A DNA stretch of 58,290 nt, from assembly GCA_027459845.1 (NCBI GenBank), contig DAIDGS010000198.1, forward strand, positions 1 through 58,290, read 5' to 3'. Made by a program: the position numbers and the translations under genes. Source of the DNA: Vulcanimicrobiota bacterium. GTDB taxonomy: Bacteria > Vulcanimicrobiota > Vulcanimicrobiia > Vulcanimicrobiales > Vulcanimicrobiaceae. Shown piece after piece: positions 379 to 39,561 of the stretch; the first letter of the stretch is position 1; each line of letters opens with the position of its first letter. The notes under the pieces were generated by a model. The model was not told the origin of the DNA and made no database searches. It saw nothing but the letters and a program-made list of their open reading frames with translations.

Positions 379-666
379 ATGCTCGTACTCAGCCGCAAGG
401 TCAACCAGTCGATCATGATCGGCGACGACATCCGTTTGGTGGTCGTTGCGGTCGATCGCGACCAGGTCAAAATCGGCATCGAGGCACCCCGCTCGGTCTC
501 GATCCACCGCTCGGAGATCTACGAGGAGATCCAGCGCACCAACCGCGCCGCGGCCGCCCCGCCGGCGGCGGCGGGGCGGCCCGGGACGGCGCGTGGAGCG
601 GTCCTGCGGCCCCGGCCCGCACCCGGCGCTAAAGTTTCTCCACAGGGGTCCGAAAAACAGGAGTGA
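379..666 (+). CDS. csrA: Carbon storage/translational regulator CsrA with C-terminal extension
   Basis: This 95-aa protein begins [20 protein letters not shown], and its first 55 residues form a complete CsrA core. The RNA-contact residues L4 and R44 (in the 'HRSEIYEEI' segment) are present. CsrA dimers bind GGA motifs in mRNA leaders and block translation; with FliW upstream and flagellins downstream, its obvious target here is flagellin mRNA. Residues 56-95 form an Ala/Pro/Arg-rich tail absent from the usual 60-75-aa family members. The DNA encoding this tail also carries a sigma-28-type promoter, and the stop codon overlaps the first flagellin leader hairpin. The ATG is preceded by an excellent SD (AAGGAGG). 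Assignment is very secure. Confidence 0.97.
630..656 (+). promoter_or_regulatory. Putative sigma-28 (FliA) promoter for flagellin 1
   Basis: TAAAGTTT at 630-637 is a perfect sigma-28 -35 box. It is followed by an 11-nt spacer and TCCGAAAA at 649-656, which matches six of eight positions of the -10 consensus GCCGATAA. The spacer equals the family optimum. Transcription would start near 662-664, giving a leader of about 70 nt for flagellin 1. The promoter lies entirely within the 3' end of csrA. No fliA gene is in the window, so the sigma factor is inferred. Confidence 0.75.
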
Positions 667-734: not shown

Positions 735-2048
735 ATGTCTCAGGGTTTGAGCATCGCCAACAACCTGTTGGCCAATCAGGTTCAACTGAACCTCGATTAC
801 AACCAGAAGCAACTCTCCAACGTCACCAACCAGCTCTCGTCGGGCTTGCGCATCAACTCTGCGGCGGACGATCCGTCGGGGAACGCGATCGCGGCCAACC
901 TGCAAACGCAGGTCGACGGCTTCAATCAGGGCTCGCAGAACGTCCAGACCGCGAACAACGCGGCGCAGGTTGCCCTCGGTGCGCTGACCAGCGAAACCGA
1001 CATCCTGCAACGCATCCGCAGCCTCGCGGTCGAGGCCGCCTCGGACATCAACAGCTCGTCGGACCGGGCCAACCTGCAGGCGGAAGTCTCGCAGTTGCTG
1101 CTCGAGGTCAACCGCATCTCACAGAACACCAACTTCAACGGCGCCTCGCTGCTGGACGGCAGCCACGCCGGCTTCCAGGCGCAGACGCAGGCGTTCTTCT
1201 CGATCACCGCTAACGCGGCGCTCGCGAGCAACGGCGGCATCAGCCCCTCCAACGGCGCCAACTACGGCTTCTTGGTCGCAACGGTTGCGACCGGGGCGAA
1301 CTTCAGCACCACGCCCGACTTCACCGGGAACAACGTCCAGGGTGGAACCGGCGTAACGGCGAGCGGCTTCGCCGCTGCCGGCGGCACGGTCGACGGCACG
1401 ATCGAACTGCAGGTCATCAACACCGGTAGCTCGATTGCGGTGCAGGAGACGTTCGTCGCCAGCGCCAGCGGCTCGATCGTCACCTCCAGCACGCTCTTCG
1501 GGGCGAACCAGGTGGCTTCGGAGTTCGACAACGTCAGCGTCACCCTCGGTGGCGCGCTCTCGACGGCCGACGTCGGCACGACCTCGTTCATCAAGATCAG
1601 CCAGAACGTGGCCGCGCAGAGCAACCCGACGCAGCCCGCGTTCAACTTCCAGTCGGGCGCCAACGAAGGCGACATCATCCAGGTCGGCATCCAGGCGACC
1701 AACACGCAGACCCTGCGCATCTCGAACATCAACCTTGCGCTCTCGGCCGCGACCAGCAGCGCCTCGTTGGGAGCCGAAGATGCGATCGGTCAGATCGACA
1801 ACGCGCTGCAGACGCTGCTCACGCAGCAAGCGCAGCTCGGTGCCGTGGTCGTGCGCCTGAACATCGATCAGGACAACGACAACACCGCCGCGACCAACCT
1901 GCAGGCAGCGGAATCGAACATCCGCGACCTCAACGTCGGTCAGGCCACCACCGAGTTCACCAAGCTGCAAATCTTGGTGCAAGTCGGGACCTCGGTGTTG
2001 GCGCAATCCAACGCCAACGCACAGTCGGTCTTGGCGCTCTTCCGCTAA
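735..2048 (+). CDS. fliC: Flagellin 1
   Basis: This 437-aa filament protein has conserved D0/D1 ends: N-terminal 'QLSSGLRINSAADDPSGNAI' and C-terminal 'GTSVLAQSNANAQSVLALFR'. The central region (about residues 160-330) is the surface-exposed variable domain, rich in Ser/Thr/Asn/Gly and so a likely target for glycosylation by the neighbouring transferases. A strong SD (GGAGG, 726-730) sets the ATG at 735. Transcription is probably from the sigma-28-type promoter inside csrA, and translation is probably under CsrA control. It is a close paralogue of the next gene; a 119-nt stretch (1382-1500 against 3301-3419) differs at only four bases, pointing to recent duplication or gene conversion. Confidence 0.97.
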   Translation: MSQGLSIANNLLANQVQLNLDYNQKQLSNVTNQLSSGLRINSAADDPSGNAIAANLQTQVDGFNQGSQNVQTANNAAQVALGALTSETDILQRIRSLAVEAASDINSSSDRANLQAEVSQLLLEVNRISQNTNFNGASLLDGSHAGFQAQTQAFFSITANAALASNGGISPSNGANYGFLVATVATGANFSTTPDFTGNNVQGGTGVTASGFAAAGGTVDGTIELQVINTGSSIAVQETFVASASGSIVTSSTLFGANQVASEFDNVSVTLGGALSTADVGTTSFIKISQNVAAQSNPTQPAFNFQSGANEGDIIQVGIQATNTQTLRISNINLALSAATSSASLGAEDAIGQIDNALQTLLTQQAQLGAVVVRLNIDQDNDNTAATNLQAAESNIRDLNVGQATTEFTKLQILVQVGTSVLAQSNANAQSVLALFR

Positions 2049-2191: not shown

Positions 2192-3967
2192 GTGGCTCAA
2201 GGTTTGAGCGTCGCCAACAATCTCTTGGCCGATCAGGTTCAACTGAACCTGGACTACAATCAAAAGCAACTGGCGAGCGTCACCAATCAGCTCTCGTCGG
2301 GGTTGCGCATCAGCTCCGCGGCCGACGACCCCTCCGGCAACGCGATCGCCGCCAACCTGCAGACCCGCGTCGACGGTTTCAACCAGGGCTCGCAGAACGT
2401 TCAAACCGCCAACAACGCCGCCGAGGTCGCGCTCGGTGCGCTCACCAACGAGACCAACCTCCTGCAGCGCATCCGCAGCCTGGCAGTCGAGGCGGCCTCG
2501 GACGTCAACAGCAGCGCCGATCGCGCCAACCTCCAGGCCGAGGTCGTGCAGCTCCTGCTCGAGGTCAATCGGATCTCGCAGGCGACCAACTTCAACGGCG
2601 CCGCCCTGCTGGACGGCAGTCATGCCGGCTTCCAGGCGCAGAACGCGGCGTTCTTCACCGTCACCGCCAATGCCGCGCTGGCCAACTCGGCAAGCGGGAC
2701 GGGACCGATCCCGAACGGTACTTTTTTGAATCCGAGCGCGCCCACCAACTCGTTCGTCGCGAACCCGGTCATTCCAGATTGGACCGTTAGTGGCGGCAGC
2801 TACAACGTCTATAACGGGAGTGGACTTGGACCGCCGTTCCCTTCGTTACCGGCGGGCAGCCAAGGGCTCGCGCTTGCGGCGGGGGTGACGGCGACAACTA
2901 CCTTGACAGGTTTGACGCCGGGGGCCCTCTACGCATTAAGCTTCTCGGGGACCACGAATATCGCGGGATTTCCGCCCAGCGTGATCGTTAACGGCAGCAA
3001 CGTTACGCCGACGAATATCTCGTCGATTACGAACGCGTCCTACCAGGAGTTTACGACGCAGGCCTTCACCGCTTCTCCCACGGGGACCGCGGTCGTAGAT
3101 TTCAATTCCAGCGCATTGGTCGATTTCGCGTTCACGTCGGTCAGCTTATCGTCGGCGGCGGCGAGCGGTCAAGGAGCGAATCCCGGTTTCCTGGTTGCGA
3201 CCGTCGCGACCGGTGCCAACTTCGGCACCACCCCGGCGTATGCCGGGAACGTGGTGCAGGGTGGGAGCGGGGTCAGCGCGGCCGGGTTCGGCGCGACCGG
3301 CGGCACGGTCGACGGCACGATCGAACTGCAGGTCATCAACACCGGAAGCTCGATTGCGGTGCAGGAGACGTTCGTGGCGAGCGCCAGCGGCTCGATCGTC
3401 ACCTCGAGCACGCTCTTCGGCGGCAGCCAGGTCGCTTCCGAGTTCGACAACGTCAGCATCACGCTGGGCGGGGTGATCTCGAGCGCCGACGTCGGTGCCA
3501 CCTCGTTCATCAAGGTGAGCCAAAACGTGGCCGCGCAAAGTAACCCGGATTCACCCGCCTTCAGTTTCCATTCCGGTGCCGAAGAGGGCGACATCATCCA
3601 AGTCGGCATCCAGGCGACCAATACGGCGACGCTACGCATCGCGAACATCAACCTCGCGCTCTCGGCCGCGACCGCGAGCGCCTCGCTCGGCGCGCAAGAC
3701 GCGATCGGTCAGATCGACAACGCGCTGGCGACGCTGCTGACGCAGCAGGCGCAGCTCGGTGCCGTGGTGGTACGGCTGAACGTCGATCAGGACAACGACA
3801 ACACCGCCGCGACCAACCTGCAGGCGGCCGAATCGAACATCCGCGACCTCAACGTCGGTCAGGCCAGTACCGAGTTCACCAAGCTGCAAATCCTGGTGCA
3901 AGTCGGAACCTCGGTTTTAGCCCAGTCGAATCTCAACGCCGTTTCGGTTTTGGCGCTCTTCCGCTAG
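2192..3967 (+). CDS. fliC: Flagellin 2 with inserted jelly-roll-like domain
   Basis: I place the start at GTG 2192, not at the earlier in-frame GTG 2174. The SD GGAGG (2182-2186) is 5 nt upstream, and the protein then begins like flagellin 1 (AQGLSVANNLLADQVQ), giving 591 aa. The D0/D1 ends are almost identical to those of flagellin 1. The extra length is an approximately 160-aa insertion (about residues 167-330) in the variable domain with a beta-rich, DUF642/galactose-binding-like pattern: an opening 'IPNGTF', 'IPDWTVSGGSYNVYNG', 'TLTGLTPGALYALSFSG' and a closing 'DFAFTSVSLSS'. The insertion uses more A/T-ending codons than its surroundings. It is probably a minor or specialised filament subunit, and adhesion or sugar binding by the insert is inferred. 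Confidence 0.93.
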   Translation: MAQGLSVANNLLADQVQLNLDYNQKQLASVTNQLSSGLRISSAADDPSGNAIAANLQTRVDGFNQGSQNVQTANNAAEVALGALTNETNLLQRIRSLAVEAASDVNSSADRANLQAEVVQLLLEVNRISQATNFNGAALLDGSHAGFQAQNAAFFTVTANAALANSASGTGPIPNGTFLNPSAPTNSFVANPVIPDWTVSGGSYNVYNGSGLGPPFPSLPAGSQGLALAAGVTATTTLTGLTPGALYALSFSGTTNIAGFPPSVIVNGSNVTPTNISSITNASYQEFTTQAFTASPTGTAVVDFNSSALVDFAFTSVSLSSAAASGQGANPGFLVATVATGANFGTTPAYAGNVVQGGSGVSAAGFGATGGTVDGTIELQVINTGSSIAVQETFVASASGSIVTSSTLFGGSQVASEFDNVSITLGGVISSADVGATSFIKVSQNVAAQSNPDSPAFSFHSGAEEGDIIQVGIQATNTATLRIANINLALSAATASASLGAQDAIGQIDNALATLLTQQAQLGAVVVRLNVDQDNDNTAATNLQAAESNIRDLNVGQASTEFTKLQILVQVGTSVLAQSNLNAVSVLALFR

Positions 3968-4016: not shown

Positions 4017-6104
4017 ATGCCCATCCGCGTGCGCTCGACCCGGCGACCGGCCTCCGCGACGCCGCCCGGCCGCCCTTCGGCGTCGAGCGGGCTGCCGTTC
4101 GGGTTGCCGGTGCCGCCGCCCGGGTGGAAGCAGAAGCCCGAAGGCATCAGCCTGTGCATGATCGTCCGCGACGAAGAGCGGTTCTTGGCGCAGTGCCTGC
4201 GCAGCGCGCAAGACAGCGTCGACGAGATCGTGATCGTCGATACCGGCTCGACCGACCGAACGGTGGAAATCGCGCGCGGTTTCGGTGCAACGGTGCTGCA
4301 TCACGCCTGGCGCAACGACTTCGCGTGGGCGCGCAACCGCTCGATCGAGGGGGCCACGCGCCGCTGGATCCTCTTTTTGGACGCCGATGAAGAGCTGCTC
4401 CCGCAGTCCCGGCCGGCGCTGGCGGCGATCCGCACGGCGCCGGCCTATCAAAACGGCATCTGGGTGCGCTGTCGCAACCGCTCCGACGACTACTTGGGAA
4501 CCGGCGAGATGTCGCATGCGCTGATTCGGATCTTTCCCAACCATCCCGAGATTCGTTTCAAGGGGATGATCCACGAGTTTCCGACCATCGGCGGGCGGCC
4601 GAACGGGCTCGACGCGCAGGTCGCCCCGATCGAGATACTGCATCACGGTTACGTGAAGGAGATGGTCAGCGGACGCGACAAGGCCGCGCGAAACCTGGCA
4701 ATCTTGAAAGAAGCCAGCGAGCGCGAACCCGACGATGCCTACCATCACTTCAACCTCGGAACGACCTATTTTCTGATGGGCGACTATCCGGCCGCGCGCG
4801 ACGCATTCGAACGGATGCTGGCGCTGGTCGGAGACGAGCGACGCGGGTTTCTGGCCAACGGGTTGGCGATCTTAGCGGAAAACTATACCGACAAACTGGG
4901 CGACGCGGTGCGCGGCGAGGCCGTTGCACGCCGGGCGCTCGGCGTCGCACCGCACTACGCCAACGCGCACTTTCAGCTCGGCAAGGCGCTCAGCGCGCAG
5001 GGACGCTACGAGGACGCGCGCGCCGCCTACCTGGCCGCGATCGACGACGGCCGGTACGCCAAGGAGCAGTTCGTCGTCGACGACCAGGTCTATCGCTGGA
5101 AGGCGCATAGCGAAGTCGGGTCGACCTACGTGATGGAGAAGGATGACGAGCGGGCGCTCGAGTGGTTCGAGCGCGGCATCGCCAACGCGCCGAAAGCCGA
5201 GCCGCTGCACGTCAATCGCGCCAAGGCACTCGAGCGGCTCGGGCGCCGCGACGAGGCGCTCGCGGCCTACCGTCACGTCTACGAACTGCACGGCAGTCAA
5301 ATGGCGACCCTGGAGTACCTCAACGCGTTGCTGCGGGCCGGACGCGAGCGCGAGGCGCTCGAGATCGTCGAGGCGCGCCACGAGGGCTTCGAGCCCGACA
5401 AGATGGTCGCGATGTTGATGGCCGGCGCCGCAATCGCGCAGCGTACCGGGCGGCTCGACGACGAACGCTACCTGCGCGCCGCGGCCGCCATTGCGCCGGG
5501 TGCCGCCGAAGTCCTCGACCCGCTCGAAGCCATCCTGCGCGCGCGCGGCAAAGCCGCCGAGCTTCCGGCGCTGATCGCGCGCGAGGACGCAACGCCGCCG
5601 CGTAGTGCGGCCGATTACCGGCGACGCGTCTTTCGGGCGATCGGCACCGAGCGCTTTGCCGATGCGCTCGCGCTCGCGGAGGCGGGCCTCACGCTCGACG
5701 GCGCGGATGCACGGCTACGCTATGCCGCCGCGATTGCGCTGGCGCGCTTGGAGCGCGCGCCCGAGGCCCTCGATCACCTGGGGGCGATCGCGAGCGCCGA
5801 TCGCGTGACGGCGGTCAACGCCGAACTGCTGCGCGCGACGCTGCTGCGCCGCTTGGGGATGCGCGACGAAGCGTTGGCGGCGTTGCAGCGCGGACTCGCG
5901 CTCGACTCGCGCAACGTCGACGCGCTTTTGCTGCGCGCCGATCTGCTGGAGTCCACCGATCCGAGCGGCGCCGAGGCGGCGCTACGCGAGGTGTGCGCGA
6001 TCGATTGTAAGCGCGGCGGGGTGGCGCTCTCGACGTATCTGCTGCGGATCGGTCGTTTCGACGAGGCGGCCCGCGCCGCCGACGCTGCGCTGCGCGAAGG
6101 GTAA
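4017..6104 (+). CDS. GT2 glycosyltransferase fused to TPR repeats
   Basis: A 695-aa cytoplasmic protein. Residues 44-190 form a family 2 GT-A domain: 'LCMIVRDEERFLAQCL', 'EIVIVDTGSTDRTVEIA' and the metal/nucleotide-binding DxD in 'ILFLDADEELL' (D122, D124). The remaining 450 or so residues are tandem TPR-like helical repeats such as 'YHHFNLGTTYFLMGDYPAAR'. It starts 49 nt after flagellin 2 and precedes two more glycosyltransferase genes and flaG-fliD-fliS. Such GT2-TPR proteins placed by flagellins are candidates for O-glycosylation of filament subunits, as with Maf-type and FlmG-type enzymes, but the substrate here is inferred. The ATG start has only a weak SD, and the first 40 residues are Pro/Arg-rich with no clear domain. 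Confidence 0.85.
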   Translation: MPIRVRSTRRPASATPPGRPSASSGLPFGLPVPPPGWKQKPEGISLCMIVRDEERFLAQCLRSAQDSVDEIVIVDTGSTDRTVEIARGFGATVLHHAWRNDFAWARNRSIEGATRRWILFLDADEELLPQSRPALAAIRTAPAYQNGIWVRCRNRSDDYLGTGEMSHALIRIFPNHPEIRFKGMIHEFPTIGGRPNGLDAQVAPIEILHHGYVKEMVSGRDKAARNLAILKEASEREPDDAYHHFNLGTTYFLMGDYPAARDAFERMLALVGDERRGFLANGLAILAENYTDKLGDAVRGEAVARRALGVAPHYANAHFQLGKALSAQGRYEDARAAYLAAIDDGRYAKEQFVVDDQVYRWKAHSEVGSTYVMEKDDERALEWFERGIANAPKAEPLHVNRAKALERLGRRDEALAAYRHVYELHGSQMATLEYLNALLRAGREREALEIVEARHEGFEPDKMVAMLMAGAAIAQRTGRLDDERYLRAAAAIAPGAAEVLDPLEAILRARGKAAELPALIAREDATPPRSAADYRRRVFRAIGTERFADALALAEAGLTLDGADARLRYAAAIALARLERAPEALDHLGAIASADRVTAVNAELLRATLLRRLGMRDEALAALQRGLALDSRNVDALLLRADLLESTDPSGAEAALREVCAIDCKRGGVALSTYLLRIGRFDEAARAADAALREG

Positions 6105-6115
6105 GGCCGACCGGG

Positions 6116-8701
6116 GTGCGCTACTCGATCGTCATCCCGGTCTTCAACAAGGCCGAACTCACCCGCGCCTGCCTGGAGGTCTTGCCGGCGTCGATTGCCG
6201 ACGCCGGCGAGGGCGAAGTGATCGTCGTCGACAACGCCTCGACCGACGCCACGGCCGAGATGCTGCGCGCCTTTCCTTGGGTCAAGGTGATTCGCAACGC
6301 CCAGAACCTCGGCTTTGCCGGCGCCAACAACCAGGGCGCGGAGCTCGCGGGCGGCGACTTCTTGGTGTTGCTGAATAACGATACGCAGCCGCGGGCGGGC
6401 TGGCTGCACGCGATGCTGGCCGTTGCCGGCGAGCCCGGCGTCGGGGCGGTCGGCGCGCGCTTGCTCTTTCCCGACGGCAGCATCCAACATGCCGGCGTCG
6501 TGATCGGCGCGCTCCCGGTCGGCGGCGTGACCGTCGGTCCGTACCATCACGGCTATCGGTTGCCCGCCGACCATCCCGACGTCACCTTTCGGCGCGAGTA
6601 TCAGGTCGTCACCGGAGCCTGCCTGGTGACGCCGCGCGCGCTCTATCGCGAGTTGGGCGGGCTCGACGAAGGCTATTGGAACGGCTATGAAGACGTCGAC
6701 TACTGCTTCAAAGTGCGGGCGCGCGGGCTGCGCGTCGTCTACGAGCCGGCGGCCACCGTCGTGCACTACGAATCGCAATCGGGCACGCAACGTTTCCGCA
6801 AGCTGTGGTCCAACATCGGGTTGCTGGATCGCCGCTGGAGCGGCAAAGTCGCCTTCGATGCCGTGCCGCGGCACATCGAGCGCGGAACGATTCGGTTCGT
6901 TCGACGCGAGGGCCACGGATCGTACGGCGTGAGCGTTGCCGCGACGCCGCCGACGACGGTGATCGTGCACGGCGAGGGTCCGGGCCCGAGCGACGCGCGC
7001 CTGCGTGCCGGCCACGCACCGGTCGAGCGGGTCGTGCGCTGCAGCGCCGACGACGCGCTACAGGCGTGCCGCGACGCGATGGCGGTGCGCGGGCAGCGGT
7101 ACCTCGCCTTCGTGCGCGCCGATACGGCGCTCGAGGACGGTTGGTTGGACGAGCTGATCGCGCAGGTCGAGGTGATTCCCGACGTCGCCGCCGCGACGTT
7201 CGCGCCGGAACTGCCGCTCGGTCCCAACGTTGCGAGCGTCGCGACCGACGCGCGCTGCACGCTGCTGGCGCTGGCGCGCATCCCGCAACACCTCGAGGTG
7301 GCATCGGACGCCCCAAGCCTCGACGTAGCCGTTGCCGGCCTGTTGCGGCGCACGTTAGCGCTGGAGCGTGGCACACGTGGGGTAGCACGCGCGATTGCGA
7401 CGGTCGGACAGTCCGGCGTCGATGCCTCCGCGTTCGACACGCGCATCGAAACCGTCGAAGCGGCACTGCGCGCGCGAGCGGCGCCCTCCCGTACGCTGAC
7501 CTCGATCGTCACCTTGAGCTGGAACGCGCCAACGTTCACCAAGGGTGCGCTGACGTCGATTCGCGCGTTCACCTCGGAGCCGTACGAAGTCATCGTCGTC
7601 GACAACGGTTCGGGTTCCGAGACCCGTGCGATGCTCGAAGCCATCGACGATCCACACGTGCGGGTCATCTACAACGCGACCAATCGGGGATTTGCGGGCG
7701 GAAACAACGACGGCATCGCGGCCGCGCGCGGCGAGCACGTCGTGTTGCTCAACAACGACGTGATCGTGACCGCCGGCTGGCTGGATGGGTTGCTCGACCC
7801 GTTCGCGCGCATCCCGACGCTCGGCGTGAGCGCTCCGCGCAGCAACAAGGTCGCGGGACACCAACTCGTGCCCGACGCGCGCTACGGGAACGAGGCCGAG
7901 ATGCACGCCTTTGCCGCCGAGCGGCGCGAACGCTTGCGGCGCACCGGCTATCTCGCCGACCGCGCGATCGGACTCTGTCTGTGCGTCGACCGTACGGTGA
8001 TCGATCAGATCGGCGGCTTCGACGAAAGCTTCGAGATCGGCAACTTCGAAGACGACGACTTCTGTTTGCGCGTGCGCGCCGCGGGCTACGACATCTACGT
8101 CTGCGACGACGTCTTCGTGCATCACTTCGGCAGCCAAACCTTTGCGGCCAACAACGTCGATTACGCGGCCTCGATGCACGGAAACTGGCAGCGATTCGCG
8201 CAGAAGTGGGGATTCCCGAGCGCCTACCCGACCAACGGCTACACGCCGCGGGCAGCGTTTTCGCGCGGCTTCGACCGACGGCTGCACTACGCGCCGATCG
8301 CTCGCGCGGTTGCGGCCGATCCGCTGCCCGCCGCCGCGGCCGAGCGCGAGGCGAGCGCGGCGCTCACGCTGGCCGCCGCCGTCGCCGACGAAGCCGAATG
8401 GGAACGGGTGGCCGCGTTTGCCGGGCGCTACCTGCGCGCATTTCGGGCCCACGACCCGATCGAACTCTGCATCGCGACGTTCGGTACGCCGGTGGCCGAC
8501 GTTGCCGCGCGCCGCCTGCAGCGCGTCCTGCGCCGCAGCGGCGTGAGCGACGCGGCCTGCGCGAACGTCGAGGTCGCCGACGAAGACGATCGCGCGGCGT
8601 GGGAGGCGCGGATGGGGCAGCGCGGCGCGGTGTCGATCGGATCGATTGACGACTCGAGCCCGAGCGGCCTGCGGCGACTCCTCGCGGAGCGCCGGCGATG
8701 A
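6116..8701 (+). CDS. Tandem two-domain GT2 glycosyltransferase
   Basis: An 861-aa protein with two family 2 GT-A domains of the rhamnosyltransferase type. The first spans about residues 1-240 ('YSIVIPVFNKAELTRACLEV', 'NLGFAGANNQGAELAGGDFL', 'LLNNDTQPRAGW'). The second spans about 458-700 ('VTLSWNAPTFTKGALTSIRA', 'VLLNNDVIVTAGW', 'GFDESFEIGNFEDDDFCLRV'). A linker of about 200 residues and a C-terminal helical tail have no recognised domain. It starts at a GTG 12 nt after the preceding GT gene and overlaps the next gene by 4 nt (ATGA), so the three transferases are probably co-transcribed. It would build an oligosaccharide with two different linkages; flagellin as acceptor is inferred from position. 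Confidence 0.87.
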   Translation: MRYSIVIPVFNKAELTRACLEVLPASIADAGEGEVIVVDNASTDATAEMLRAFPWVKVIRNAQNLGFAGANNQGAELAGGDFLVLLNNDTQPRAGWLHAMLAVAGEPGVGAVGARLLFPDGSIQHAGVVIGALPVGGVTVGPYHHGYRLPADHPDVTFRREYQVVTGACLVTPRALYRELGGLDEGYWNGYEDVDYCFKVRARGLRVVYEPAATVVHYESQSGTQRFRKLWSNIGLLDRRWSGKVAFDAVPRHIERGTIRFVRREGHGSYGVSVAATPPTTVIVHGEGPGPSDARLRAGHAPVERVVRCSADDALQACRDAMAVRGQRYLAFVRADTALEDGWLDELIAQVEVIPDVAAATFAPELPLGPNVASVATDARCTLLALARIPQHLEVASDAPSLDVAVAGLLRRTLALERGTRGVARAIATVGQSGVDASAFDTRIETVEAALRARAAPSRTLTSIVTLSWNAPTFTKGALTSIRAFTSEPYEVIVVDNGSGSETRAMLEAIDDPHVRVIYNATNRGFAGGNNDGIAAARGEHVVLLNNDVIVTAGWLDGLLDPFARIPTLGVSAPRSNKVAGHQLVPDARYGNEAEMHAFAAERRERLRRTGYLADRAIGLCLCVDRTVIDQIGGFDESFEIGNFEDDDFCLRVRAAGYDIYVCDDVFVHHFGSQTFAANNVDYAASMHGNWQRFAQKWGFPSAYPTNGYTPRAAFSRGFDRRLHYAPIARAVAADPLPAAAAEREASAALTLAAAVADEAEWERVAAFAGRYLRAFRAHDPIELCIATFGTPVADVAARRLQRVLRRSGVSDAACANVEVADEDDRAAWEARMGQRGAVSIGSIDDSSPSGLRRLLAERRR

Positions 8702-11111: not shown

Positions 11112-11125
11112 GTTAAGGGAGTAGT

Positions 11126-13159
11126 ATGTCCAGCAACGGAGTGCAAGGGACCAACTCGGGTCCGATCTCGTTCCCCGGCATCGTGTCGGGAATCGACTAC
11201 AACTCGATCATCTCGAAGCTGACCTCGCTGACGCTCGCGCCGACCACGGCGCTGAACGCGCAGATCACGACGCTCAACAACGCGAACGTCGAGCTGATCA
11301 GGATCAACAACTATCTGCAGTCGGTTCAGTCGACGCTGGTCGCGCTTTCGAACCCCGACATCTACAATGCCTACGACGCAACCTCGAGCAACGCCACTGC
11401 AGTCACCGCGTCCGGGATCGCGGGCCAAGCGGCGATCGCCGGGGCGTACACGATCGATAAGGTCGTGACGGCGACCTCGACTGAGGTCACCAGCAACGCC
11501 AACGCCGGCTACGGGATCACGGCAAAAATTACGTCCGGCACCTATGCCGGGCAGAACTCGGATACCGTCCCGTTGATCGATTCCTATGCCGCGGTGACGC
11601 CGAGTAATGGTTCCGGTTCGACGGGTACGGTGACGGTCGACGGAGTGACGATCACCTACGACGTGAACGCGCAGTCGCTCGACACGATTCTCAACAACAT
11701 CACGACGCAGGTCGATACCAACGCAGACTCCGGTTTCCTCGCGACGCTGGTCGGTGGAAAGGTGGAGTTTACTTCCTCGGACAAGCCGATATCGCTTGGG
11801 GCCCCGCAGGATTCGGGAAATCTTCTCGACGTTTTGCGACTGAGTAGCGCACACGTTTTGAACACCGCCGGTGGCGGCAAGGTTGTGGGCACGGCAAACG
11901 TCGGGGGCATCGACCCGGCGGCTTCCTTCGATAATACAAACTCGGCCAACTTCAAGACGCCGGTCACGGCCGGGACCTTCACGATCAATGGCGTCGCCAT
12001 CAGCGTAACGGCAACGCAGAGTCTCAACGACGTGCTCGATGCGATCAATAGCTCGGATGCCGGCGTGACGGCGACGTTCAATTCGATCACCAATCAGATC
12101 GTCTTGACCTCGAATGCGACGGGACCGCAATCGATCGTACTGGGACAGAGCGGCGACACCAGCAACTTTCTCAGCGCCAGTGGTCTTACCACCGCATCGG
12201 GCGGAAAGACGCTTATCGGATCGCAAGCCGAGGTCATCGTTCAGTCGCCGGGAGGAGCCAAGCAAACCTACTACTCGAACTCCAACACCGTCACCAATGC
12301 CATTACGGGCGTTCAACTCAACCTGCAGAGCAATACCTCGACGCCCTTCACGATCAACGTCGCGCAGGATAGTTCGCAGTTGGTGAGCGCGGTGACCGCG
12401 TTCGTGTCGGCCTACAACGCGGCGGTCAGCGAGATCAACACGGCGACGCAGGCGCCGGTCGTCAGCCAGCCGGGCCTTGGCTCGGGCGGAAGCGGCGCGC
12501 AGTCGGTCGGCGGCGGCGTGCTCTTCGGGAACAACGACGTGCGCAGCGTGGCCCTCCAGTTGAGTAGCATCGTGAGCGGCTTTTTGGGGTCGGGAACGTC
12601 GTACAACTCGCTCTCGCAGATCGGGCTCAATCTCAGCGACAACTTCAGTACCTACACCAGCGGCAACAATAGCAACAACCTCGGAAACGCCGGCGGCTCG
12701 TCGTCGGGGAGCTCGACCAGTCCGATTCAGTCCACCTCGTATCAGGGTACCGACGGGACGCTGCAGCCGCTCGATGTGAACGCGTTGGTGAGCGCGCTCG
12801 ACGCCAATCCGAGCGCCGTGCAGTCGCTGCTCAACGGCGCCAATGGGCTCACGACGCAGTTGGGGACGTACCTCACCGGCGTAACCGGGGCGCCGACGAT
12901 CTTGGATTCGGGACCGGTCGGCAACATCCCGGCGACGTCGATCATCCAGAACTACGAAAACACCAATACCGATACGATTCAGTCGCTGCAGCAGCAGATC
13001 ACGCAGATCACCGACAACGCGAACGAGCAAGCCAACTCGTTGCGCTCGCAGTTCGTCGCTAGCGAAACCTTGATCGCCCAGTTGCAGGCCGAACAGCAGA
13101 CGCTGGCCGCAGCGCTCGGATTTACGGTCTCCAGCTCGTCGAGTTCGAGCGGGGCGTAA
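11126..13159 (+). CDS. fliD: Flagellar filament cap protein FliD
   Basis: A 677-aa hook-associated protein 2. The N-terminal FliD domain opens with 'PISFPGIVSGIDYNSIISKL' and 'APTTALNAQITTLNNANVEL'. The middle (about 100-400) is a long variable Ser/Thr/Asn-rich insert with FlgE/flagellin-like beta repeats. The C-terminal domain ends with a coiled coil rich in Gln/Asn ('QSLQQQITQITDNANEQANS') and a Ser-rich tail. FliD caps the growing filament and chaperones insertion of flagellin. It is longer than the usual 450-480 aa, consistent with the large outer domain. SD 'AAGGGAG' precedes the ATG; fliS follows 4 nt after the stop. Confidence 0.95.
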   Translation: MSSNGVQGTNSGPISFPGIVSGIDYNSIISKLTSLTLAPTTALNAQITTLNNANVELIRINNYLQSVQSTLVALSNPDIYNAYDATSSNATAVTASGIAGQAAIAGAYTIDKVVTATSTEVTSNANAGYGITAKITSGTYAGQNSDTVPLIDSYAAVTPSNGSGSTGTVTVDGVTITYDVNAQSLDTILNNITTQVDTNADSGFLATLVGGKVEFTSSDKPISLGAPQDSGNLLDVLRLSSAHVLNTAGGGKVVGTANVGGIDPAASFDNTNSANFKTPVTAGTFTINGVAISVTATQSLNDVLDAINSSDAGVTATFNSITNQIVLTSNATGPQSIVLGQSGDTSNFLSASGLTTASGGKTLIGSQAEVIVQSPGGAKQTYYSNSNTVTNAITGVQLNLQSNTSTPFTINVAQDSSQLVSAVTAFVSAYNAAVSEINTATQAPVVSQPGLGSGGSGAQSVGGGVLFGNNDVRSVALQLSSIVSGFLGSGTSYNSLSQIGLNLSDNFSTYTSGNNSNNLGNAGGSSSGSSTSPIQSTSYQGTDGTLQPLDVNALVSALDANPSAVQSLLNGANGLTTQLGTYLTGVTGAPTILDSGPVGNIPATSIIQNYENTNTDTIQSLQQQITQITDNANEQANSLRSQFVASETLIAQLQAEQQTLAAALGFTVSSSSSSSGA

Positions 13160-36885: not shown

Positions 36886-37619
36886 TCGACCTCCGTAAGC
36901 GCTCGCCGGCGCTCGATCCGGCTGCGATTCCATCGCATATCGCCATCATCATGGACGGGAACCGCCGCTGGGCGCGCCGCTACGGGCTCCCGGCCATCGA
37001 GGGTCACCGGCGCGGCATGGTCTCGCTGCGGCGGGTCACGCGTGCCGCCAGCGAGCTCGGTGTGCGCGCCTTGACGGCCTACGGATTCTCAACCGAAAAC
37101 TGGAATCGCGACGCGCTCGAGATTTCGCTGCTGATGGATCTCTGCGTGCATTTCGCACGGCACGAGCTGATCGAAATGCAGCGTAACAACGTGCGCATGC
37201 GGGTCATCGGCGAGTGGGAGTCGCTGCCCAGCGCCCCACGCGAAGCGCTCGGTGAGATGCAGGCCGCGACCGCGAGCAATACCGGGCTGGTGCTCAACCT
37301 GGCGATCAACTACAGTTCGCGCGCCGAGTTGGCCAATGCGATGCGGGCGATCGCGCGCGACGTGGCGGCCGGGGTGGTGCTGCCCGACGCAGTCGACGAC
37401 GCATTGATCCAGAGTTACCTTTACACGCGCGACCTTCCGGAGTTGGATTTGCTGATCCGCCCCGGCGGCGAGCACCGGCTGTCGAACTTTCTGCTCTATC
37501 AGGCGGCCTATGCCGAGCTGGTGATGACCGACATCTACTGGCCGGATTTTTCGAAGGACGACTTGGTGCGCGCGCTCATCGAGTTTCAGCAGCGCGAGCG
37601 ACGTTTCGGGGGAGCGTGA
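36882..37619 (+). CDS. uppS: Undecaprenyl (isoprenyl) diphosphate synthase
   Basis: A 245-aa cis-prenyltransferase from GTG 36882. Signatures: 'HIAIIMDGNRRWARRYGLPA' (catalytic D25 and the diphosphate-binding Arg residues), 'GHRRGMVSLRRVTRAASELG', 'LTAYGFSTENWNRD', 'LVLNLAINYSSRAELANAM' and 'ELDLLIRPGGEHRLSNFLLY'. It makes the lipid carrier for peptidoglycan and other glycans, a direct partner of the Amj flippase and glycosyltransferases elsewhere in the window. GTGA overlaps link it to both neighbours. Confidence 0.97.
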   Translation: MIDLRKRSPALDPAAIPSHIAIIMDGNRRWARRYGLPAIEGHRRGMVSLRRVTRAASELGVRALTAYGFSTENWNRDALEISLLMDLCVHFARHELIEMQRNNVRMRVIGEWESLPSAPREALGEMQAATASNTGLVLNLAINYSSRAELANAMRAIARDVAAGVVLPDAVDDALIQSYLYTRDLPELDLLIRPGGEHRLSNFLLYQAAYAELVMTDIYWPDFSKDDLVRALIEFQQRERRFGGA

Positions 37620-38419
37620 GGGGACGCATCGTCGTCGGTCTGATCGTCGCGGCGATCGGGCTGCTCTGCGTCATTTCGCCGTCGGTCTTCGCGTTGCTGA
37701 TCGTCGCGATCGGGTTGGCCAGCCTCTACGAACTGAACCAGCTCTGTACGATCAAGGGTCAGCCGCTCGAATATCCGGTGGCGATGGCGGGTGTCTTTGC
37801 CTATGCAGTGCTGGCGTATTTCGGCGAGCTGCGCCATTGGGAAGGCGTGTTGCTGGCCGGCATCATCCTGGCGGCCTTTTGGATCGGGATGTACGGCGAA
37901 CAGAAGGGCTACTTCGCGCGGACGGCCTACACGCTGCTTGCGGTGCTCTACATCGGCAAACTGCTCACCTACTTTATCGCCATCCGGCAGATTCCGGCGA
38001 CCGGCATCTGGCTGACGTACTATGCGATCCTGACGATCGCGTTGAGCGACATCTTTGCGATGGCGATCGGCTCGGCTGCCGGCCGCACCGCCTTGACCAA
38101 GATCTCGCCCAGCAAGACGGTCGAAGGGTCGCTCGGTGCGCTGGTCGTCGTGACGATCTTCGGCGCGGTAGCGGCGGCGCTGTTTCGTCCGCTCGCGCTG
38201 CAGTGGTGGCAAGGCGCGGCGATTGCGTTCAGTACCGGCGTGGCGGCTCAGGTCGGCGATTTGGCGGAGTCGGCGCTCAAGCGCGACGCCGGCGTCAAGG
38301 ATGCGGGGGAGATGATCGTCGGTCACGGCGGCGTCCTGGATCGATTCGACTCGTACCTCTTCGGCGGGGTCACGTTCTTTGCGGCGCTGCATCTGGTCGG
38401 AGTGCTCGCGCTGCCGTGA
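37616..38419 (+). CDS. cdsA: Phosphatidate cytidylyltransferase (CDP-diglyceride synthase)
   Basis: A 267-aa membrane protein with seven or eight hydrophobic segments, starting at GTG 37616 in a GTGA overlap with uppS. The C-terminal signature is present: 'GDLAESALKRDAGVKDAGEM' followed by 'GHGGVLDRFDSYLFGG'. The position normally occupied by Pro or Gly before 'GHGG' is Val here, a small departure. It converts phosphatidate and CTP to CDP-diacylglycerol for phospholipid synthesis. Gene order uppS-cdsA-dxr-rseP is conserved in many bacteria, supporting the call. Confidence 0.95.
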   Translation: MRGRIVVGLIVAAIGLLCVISPSVFALLIVAIGLASLYELNQLCTIKGQPLEYPVAMAGVFAYAVLAYFGELRHWEGVLLAGIILAAFWIGMYGEQKGYFARTAYTLLAVLYIGKLLTYFIAIRQIPATGIWLTYYAILTIALSDIFAMAIGSAAGRTALTKISPSKTVEGSLGALVVVTIFGAVAAALFRPLALQWWQGAAIAFSTGVAAQVGDLAESALKRDAGVKDAGEMIVGHGGVLDRFDSYLFGGVTFFAALHLVGVLALP

Positions 38420-39561
38420 CCCGTCGCCGCGTCGCCATTCTGGGTTCGACCGGATCGATCGGCACGCAGGCGCTCGACGTCGTCGCGCGCTTCCCGGAGC
38501 GCTTCGAGGTGGTTGGGCTGGCGGCCGGCCGGAATCGCGCGCTGCTCGAGCAGCAGGCGACGACGTTCCAGCCGCGCGTCGCGACGACCGCGGCCGACGG
38601 TCCGGACGGGCTGATGCAGGTCGCGATCGCGAGCGGCGCCGACGTGGTGCTCGCGGCGACCGACGGCGCGGTAGCCTTCGATGCGGTCTTTGCGGCGGTC
38701 GAGCGCGGCATCGACGTGGCCGTCGCCAACAAGGAACTCGTCGTCGCGGCCGGCGAGCTCCTGGTGGCGGCGGCGGCGCGCGGCGGGGCGCGCCTCCTGC
38801 CGGTCGACTCGGAGCACAGTGCGATCTTTCAGTCTCTGCTCGGCGAGGCGCCGGCATCGGTCGAGGGGATCGTGCTGACCGCCTCCGGCGGTCCGTTTCG
38901 GCAGGCCAGCGGCGCCGAGATTGCCGCGGCGACCTTGGAGCGCGCGCTGGCGCACCCAACCTGGCGGATGGGGACCAAGAACACGATCGACTCGGCGACG
39001 CTCATGAACAAGGGGCTGGAAGTCATCGAGGCGGCGCGGCTCTTCGAGCTTCCGGGCGAGCGCGTGCACGTCGCGGTCCATCCGCAGTCGATTGCGCACG
39101 GCTTCGTGCTCTTTCGCGATGGGAGCGTCAAGGGACAGCTGGCCGCGCCGGATATGCGGCTCCCGATCGGCTTTGCCCTGGCCTTTCCCGACCGCTTGCC
39201 GGCCGCCCCCGGTGGGGTCAGCGCGGACGTCTTGCAGGCGCTCGGCGGCCGCTGCGACGCCGCCGATCTCCGCTACGACTTCGAACGGCCCGATCTCACC
39301 CGCTTCCCGGCCCTTGGACTCGCCTACCGCGCGCTCGCACGGGGCGGCATCGCGCCGGCCGCGCTTTCGGCAGCCAACGAAGTCGCCGTTGGGGCCTTCG
39401 TCGAAGGTAGGATCGGGTTCGCTGGGATACCGCGTATCATCGAAGCGGTCATGGAAGCGCTTCCGGCGCGCGAACTCAGCCTCGCGGCGGTCCGGGACGC
39501 CGATCGCGAAGCCCGTCGGCGCGCTGCCGGCCTGGTCGAAGAGAAGGGAATGTCGTGCTAG
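38416..39561 (+). CDS. dxr: 1-deoxy-D-xylulose 5-phosphate reductoisomerase
   Basis: GTG 38416 overlaps the cdsA stop (GTGA), giving 381 aa; the longer frame lies inside cdsA. Signatures: NADPH-binding 'RVAILGSTGSIGTQALDVVA', 'DVAVANKELVVAAGELLVAA', 'LLPVDSEHSAIFQSLLG', 'IVLTASGGPFRQASGAEIAA', 'WRMGTKNTIDSATLMNKGLE' and 'VHVAVHPQSIAHGFVLFRDG'. It commits to the MEP isoprenoid pathway; the later enzyme ispG is two genes downstream and uppS two upstream, so isoprenoid precursor supply and use are grouped. Confidence 0.97.
   Translation: MTRRRVAILGSTGSIGTQALDVVARFPERFEVVGLAAGRNRALLEQQATTFQPRVATTAADGPDGLMQVAIASGADVVLAATDGAVAFDAVFAAVERGIDVAVANKELVVAAGELLVAAAARGGARLLPVDSEHSAIFQSLLGEAPASVEGIVLTASGGPFRQASGAEIAAATLERALAHPTWRMGTKNTIDSATLMNKGLEVIEAARLFELPGERVHVAVHPQSIAHGFVLFRDGSVKGQLAAPDMRLPIGFALAFPDRLPAAPGGVSADVLQALGGRCDAADLRYDFERPDLTRFPALGLAYRALARGGIAPAALSAANEVAVGAFVEGRIGFAGIPRIIEAVMEALPARELSLAAVRDADREARRRAAGLVEEKGMSC

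Follow-up and report, generated by a model that had tools for sequence, protein, structure and literature searches.

Foreign domains in the hypervariable regions of bacterial flagellins are already known. One survey counts 61 such domain families, including metallopeptidases, vWFA and sialidase domains (Eckhard et al., 2017; PMC5595980), and the proven case described there is flagellinolysin, a metalloprotease with an HExxH motif. Proven functions of flagellin-hosted foreign domains are few and come chiefly from such protease flagellins. A different kind of extended flagellin is found in the sheath flagellins of EHEC O157:H7, Achromobacter and Sinorhizobium meliloti, in which an extra outer domain without convincing fold relatives is carried by the D0/D1 core (PMC8931119).

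Here, a stretch of 58,290 nucleotides (the window) was analyzed, which is contig C198 of a 2.72-Mb MAG of 205 contigs (genome G000; uncultured, Candidatus Eremiobacterota) and encodes two neighboring flagellins. As in the foreign-domain flagellins of that survey (PMC5595980), flagellin 2 harbors a foreign folded domain between intact flagellin N- and C-terminal ends and shows a patchy distribution that suggests transfer. In contrast to flagellinolysin, the added domain is predicted to be CBM-like and lacks histidine. The extra outer domain is a likeness to the sheath flagellins, whereas fold relatives were found for the insert of flagellin 2. DUF642, the family to which this insert is most similar, does not appear in the published top ten of flagellin-inserted domains of the survey (PMC5595980), and no paper joining DUF642 and a bacterial flagellin was found in the literature searched, where co-mentions look unrelated by title and abstract. 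A CBM-like fold that occurs at several flagellin positions within a single, little-known phylum, in genomes that also encode plain flagellins, provides natural pairs for testing the purpose of flagellar decoration, and the insert sites mark positions in these flagellins that tolerate domains of 150 residues.

Organization of the flagellin locus

The genes are arranged in the order csrA, flagellin 1, flagellin 2, glycosyltransferases and fliD (Table 1). The first glycosyltransferase downstream of flagellin 2 is, by its position, a candidate flagellin glycosyltransferase. The reading frame of flagellin 2 is intact and contains both the Flagellin_N and the Flagellin_C end of a bacterial flagellin. 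Its start was set by alignment with flagellin 1 and relatives, for which the GTG at 2192, located 11 bases 3' of a GGAGGAA-type ribosome binding site (ATGGAGGAA), is the best placement.

Table 1. Features of the flagellin locus and the evidence for their assignment.
Feature	Position	Strand	Evidence
csrA, global regulator, 5' of the flagellins	379..666	+	PF02599 E=5.9e-26
Flagellin 1, without insert	735..2048	+	Flagellin_N E=2.1e-32, Flagellin_C E=2.6e-15
Flagellin 2, insert-bearing	2192..3967	+	Flagellin_N E=1.6e-27 (PF00669), Flagellin_C E=2.3e-14 (PF00700)
Insert, predicted DUF642/choice-of-anchor-C-like jelly-roll domain, 155 aa	2696..3160	+	PF04862, TIGR04362, AlphaFold2, Foldseek
Glycosyltransferase family 2 with TPR repeats	4017..6104	+	PF00535 E=9.1e-21, TPR families
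Double family-2 glycosyltransferase	6116..8701	+	PF00535 E=8.7e-51, two stretches
fliD, filament cap; open frame, start approximate	11117..13156	+	FliD_C E=1.7e-30, FliD_N E=5.8e-12

In flagellin 2, 155 additional residues (165 aa with linkers, 2687-3181) replace a short linker of flagellin 1, which agrees with the initial annotation of flagellin 2 as flagellin 1 plus about 160 residues. The description of the flanks as nearly identical was overstated: amino-acid identity between the two flagellins is 85% on the N side and 88% on the C side, with dS values of 0.73 and 0.50, respectively.

Domain family and predicted fold of the insert

DUF642 was the only Pfam family that matched the isolated insert (PF04862; E=6.9e-5, 23.1-23.4 bits, under the gathering cut-off of 27 bits). 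The choice-of-anchor C family matched at E=3.7e-5 and 24 bits (TIGR04362; under the curated cut-off of 120 bits). All seven homologous inserts, that of flagellin 2 counted, were matched by DUF642 with a best E of 2.5e-12, and five of the seven by choice-of-anchor C; weak matches to CBM_4_9, CBM_56 and CBM_6 were also obtained for some of them. Because homologous inserts reach this E-value, the flagellin 2 insert is named DUF642-like, as a homologue by linkage. A profile built from seven other homologous inserts scored the flagellin 2 insert with 96 bits (9.5e-29), while the maximum on 1000 shuffles was 12 bits. The DUF642 pattern noticed in the initial annotation was thus recovered by profile searches. 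As to the ordinary flagellin D2/D3 domain that had been named as the contrary outcome, none of the Pfam outer-domain families of that kind matched the insert, and the whole flagellin 2 gave only Flagellin_N and Flagellin_C at E<=1.

The insert contains 42 Ser or Thr among its 155 residues, four charged residues, no cysteine and no histidine, and the HExxH zinc-binding motif is therefore absent. The flagellinolysin profile NF033876 matched the flagellin part only, with 42.5 bits against a cut-off of 205. Positions that are invariant across the inserts are mostly Gly, Pro or hydrophobic, and no sugar-binding site could be recognized from conservation among the inserts. In many DUF642-type domains a Glu follows the motif NGxF. 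This Glu of the NGxFE start is replaced in the flagellin 2 insert and present in a class of flagellins with tandem domains (see below). The insert resembles DUF642 and choice-of-anchor C proteins in sequence profile and predicted jelly-roll fold, but differs from DUF642 proteins in the replaced Glu, the lack of cysteine and a score under the gathering cut-off. It also differs in being embedded in a flagellin, whereas some other genomes of the same bacterial family encode stand-alone DUF642-like proteins, which have apparent signal peptides. Searching the PDB by sequence with the insert alone gave nothing significant; a weak profile match to the EclA lectin domain was obtained (E=0.0098).

For the insert, AlphaFold2 predicted a nine-strand beta-sandwich from a five-sequence alignment (mean pLDDT 73, pTM 0.73), in which the first 30 residues were poor. 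When this model was subjected to Foldseek, matches were obtained to CBM4, CBM6, CBM22, CBM36, a porphyran-binding CBM and the EclA lectin domain with TM values of about 0.5-0.65. The predicted structure has the features of a CBM fold and of the jelly-roll (galactose-binding-like) fold. Together, the beta-sandwich and its CBM neighbors support the reading of the insert as a CBM-like jelly roll, the fold put forward in the initial annotation for this variable region. The likeness to CBM4, CBM6, CBM22 and CBM36 is one of predicted fold, but sequence identity in the fold alignments is 11-18%, no ligand site was recognized and the domain is unattached to an enzyme. In a full-length AlphaFold2 model the insert was the most confident part, and the flagellin core, probably because the alignment was not deep enough, was too poor for the insert to be positioned on a filament. 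A phage origin of the insert was considered and rejected: a PHROG search with the insert gave no match, and a viral fold search, in which the fold was common among phage tail proteins and fibres, shows only how widespread it is in such proteins.

Distribution of the insert in related genomes

A flagellin matching flagellin 2 was detected in 47 of 99 genomes of the family. Homologous inserts were present in seven of the 99, distributed over four genera and eight flagellin genes, since G065 has two; the insert is hence not a feature of all flagellins of the lineage, whereas its presence in all of them with normal composition had been named in the initial annotation as a refuting outcome. The cultured Vulcanimicrobium alpinus has no flagellin gene (PMC9758169). 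A search over 149 genomes from the phylum revealed no further carrier at that sensitivity, and a GTDB contig scan with a four-sequence insert alignment returned just four loci that were already known. Two insertion sites were distinguished. Site A, before the motif GFLVATV, is used in G000, G029, G048, G065 and G066, and site B, about 30 residues after site A, in G035, G038 and G065. A plain flagellin of about 440 aa occurs alongside the insert-bearing one in at least six of the seven carrier genomes; for G038 there was none among the matches listed.

In addition, a more distant flagellin class with two tandem DUF642-like domains was found in three genomes (G029, G031 and G056); the Pfam search covered the G029 protein, in which the second domain is weak (E=0.038). 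A further flagellin of G029 (C23, L068 404-2095) carries at site A an unrelated insert, about 110-130 residues long, for which no Pfam match was obtained. Because of the two insert sites, the tandem class and this unrelated insert, the flagellin variable region is regarded as a hot spot for added domains. As the same kind of domain is found at different flagellin positions in relatives, it seems to have been put on display at the flagellar surface recurrently.

Several observations were made around the genes of relatives. The insert-bearing flagellin of G066 (L060 5431-7221) is broken by an in-frame TAG, which is either a broken gene or an assembly error, and an intact plain flagellin adjoins it. 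Frames that read as transposase-like adjoin two site-B flagellins near contig ends (L075 6518-7399 and L076 5617-6042), and insertion sequences may help to move insert-bearing flagellin genes. Non-flagellin open frames that contain serial CBM_4_9/DUF642-like domains and are 1321 and 1371 aa long occur in G035 (C26; L054, L078) and G064 (C33; L051, L079), and such long multi-domain proteins are a possible reservoir of the domain.

Base composition and history of the insert

The initial annotation had noted A/T-richer codons in the insert and taken them as a sign of recent acquisition by recombination. Relative to the flanks, the difference was confirmed (GC3 of 0.735 in the insert versus 0.862 and 0.843; Fisher p=0.002). 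Relative to the window it was not, as 17% of 155-codon stretches of the other genes are equally low in GC3 (mean 0.81, sd 0.09). In relatives, insert GC3 ranges from 0.59 to 0.75 and falls below, matches or exceeds that of the own flanks. Composition was therefore discarded as a sign of recent transfer, since the insert lies at the 17th percentile of the window genes and the relatives show no constant direction. Recombination as the route drew its support from phylogeny and pairwise identities instead.

In a tree of the flanks, flagellins 1 and 2 of G000 were sisters with a support of 100, and in the other genomes insert-bearing flagellins mostly clustered with insert-free flagellins of the same genus. 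A monophyletic origin of the site-A flagellins as a whole was rejected on the flanks (p-AU 5e-34; without G000, p-AU 0.001). A single, vertically inherited insert-bearing lineage is rejected by the flank trees, so that repeated recruitment, cassette transfer or flank conversion is needed. Most pairs of inserts diverge much faster than their flanks, as in G065 and G066, in which the inserts are 49% and the flanks 84-85% identical. The reverse was observed for G029 and G048, which belong to different genera and have inserts of 88% and flanks of 78-79% identity (p=0.012). Their grouping was recovered by the C-flank (support 94) and the insert (support 86) and rejected by the N-flank (p-AU 0.012, but SH 0.23). 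Between G035 and G038 the DNA is 99% identical over N-flank and insert and 93% in the C-flank, the C-flank protein being identical. In the insert tree, the grouping of the G000 site-A insert with site-A or site-B inserts had a support of 37. These patterns point to recombination near the insert; for flagellin variable regions in general, recombination has been proposed before (PMC7018530).

Recombination at a hot spot in the variable region may have brought the domain into flagellins, either repeatedly or as a mobile cassette; the domain would then not stem from one ancient, vertically inherited insertion. A real but, on these few sequences, rather unlikely alternative is that one ancient paralogue insertion was kept vertically and that gene conversion afterwards made its flanks uniform with the local plain flagellin, which would make the repeated recruitment illusory. 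This alternative would account for the clustering of flanks by genus, and it would be favored by the plain and insert-bearing genes lying in tandem in G000 and G066. However, the two insertion sites and the tandem-domain class speak against a single event, the inserts of G029 and G048 are closer than their flanks across genera, and most of the other carriers sit at different loci, where the stretch read shows no flagellin neighbor. A donor within the own genome was also rejected, as a protein search found no second copy of the insert; stand-alone DUF642-like proteins do occur in relatives. A genome search for DUF642 gave no match; this search was insensitive, because the insert itself was missed.

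Possible functions of the insert-bearing flagellin

Domains in the variable region of a flagellin come to lie on the filament surface in many copies. Flagellin 2 is proposed to be an accessory flagellin that would join flagellin 1 in one filament through its conserved D0/D1 ends and would present the DUF642-type jelly roll of its variable region as an outer domain, giving a filament with many displayed copies. In this proposal, co-assembly with flagellin 1 and surface exposure of the insert are inferred. The displayed domain may bind extracellular polysaccharide, such as matrix, biofilm or plant glycan, weakly and multivalently. Glycan binding is the preferred reading because of the CBM-like fold, from which sugar binding and adhesion are deduced, and we consider it about evenly balanced; against it stand the mostly Gly, Pro and hydrophobic invariant positions and the four charged residues. 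A bolder version, which we regard as improbable, is that Eremiobacterota flagella are evolved lectin filaments, for which glycan-binding jelly rolls were recruited on several occasions and pass as cassettes from species to species, with cells swapping the domain to give the filament a different adhesion target.

Purely structural roles are known for CBM-like jelly rolls as well. It is possible, if on the unlikely side, that neighboring copies of the outer domain pair to form a sheath or a screw-like surface, which would make the filament stiffer or alter its waveform in viscous or porous surroundings, without any ligand. Outer domains with exactly that role are known from soil and gut bacteria (PMC8931119) and the conserved positions of the insert look structural, but the outer domains described there have no convincing fold match in unrelated proteins, whereas the insert matches CBM folds. 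The plain flagellins of the carrier genomes further argue that the insert is not needed for the filament as such.

Less probable still is a variable, glycosylated coat, antigenic or for phage escape, in which the value of the insert would lie in its difference and sugar decoration and not in binding. The Ser/Thr-rich and almost uncharged composition, the glycosyltransferase genes between flagellin 2 and fliD and the rapid divergence of inserts relative to flanks in most pairs are in line with such a coat. However, any Ser/Thr-rich stretch would suffice for this purpose, while a single folded family has been retained both at the two sites and in another class of flagellins; flagellin 1 is Ser/Thr-rich as well (85/437), and the glycosyltransferases are linked to flagellin by position only. 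An assembly artefact or chance resemblance, which the 205 contigs of the MAG and the DUF642 score under the cut-off might suggest, has a negligible probability and is refuted by four independent genomes that have homologous inserts at this position, the frame being open throughout and the score of the insert profile lying far above that of all shuffles.

Leader sequences and contig ends

GGA motifs were found in both flagellin leaders (2100-2205 and 667-745), in each case the GGAGGAA ribosome binding site and one further upstream. In the leader of flagellin 2, the upstream motif (ACAAGGAU) lies in a predicted hairpin loop and resembles a CsrA site; the stability of the fold does not exceed that of shuffles. 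Because csrA is located directly 5' of flagellin 1 and both leaders contain GGA motifs, control of flagellin translation by CsrA is likely. Between the flagellin genes a 12-bp GC hairpin was detected at 2069-2096 (-29.9 kcal/mol, z -5.2, without a T run), which is perhaps a processing or stabilising element.

The partial gene at 13-291 reads nearly as the gene end near the end of contig C117 (L004 2762-3277), where it follows a FlgL-like gene; we take this gene to be FliW-like. Contigs C117 and C198 are probably adjacent or overlapping, which would give the row flgL, fliW, csrA, flagellin 1, flagellin 2 and fliD. Elsewhere in the window, the open frame 37528-39558 contains a stretch of low GC3 (about 0.43-0.50) 5' of a DXP reductoisomerase domain, which is probably non-coding sequence upstream of the true start.
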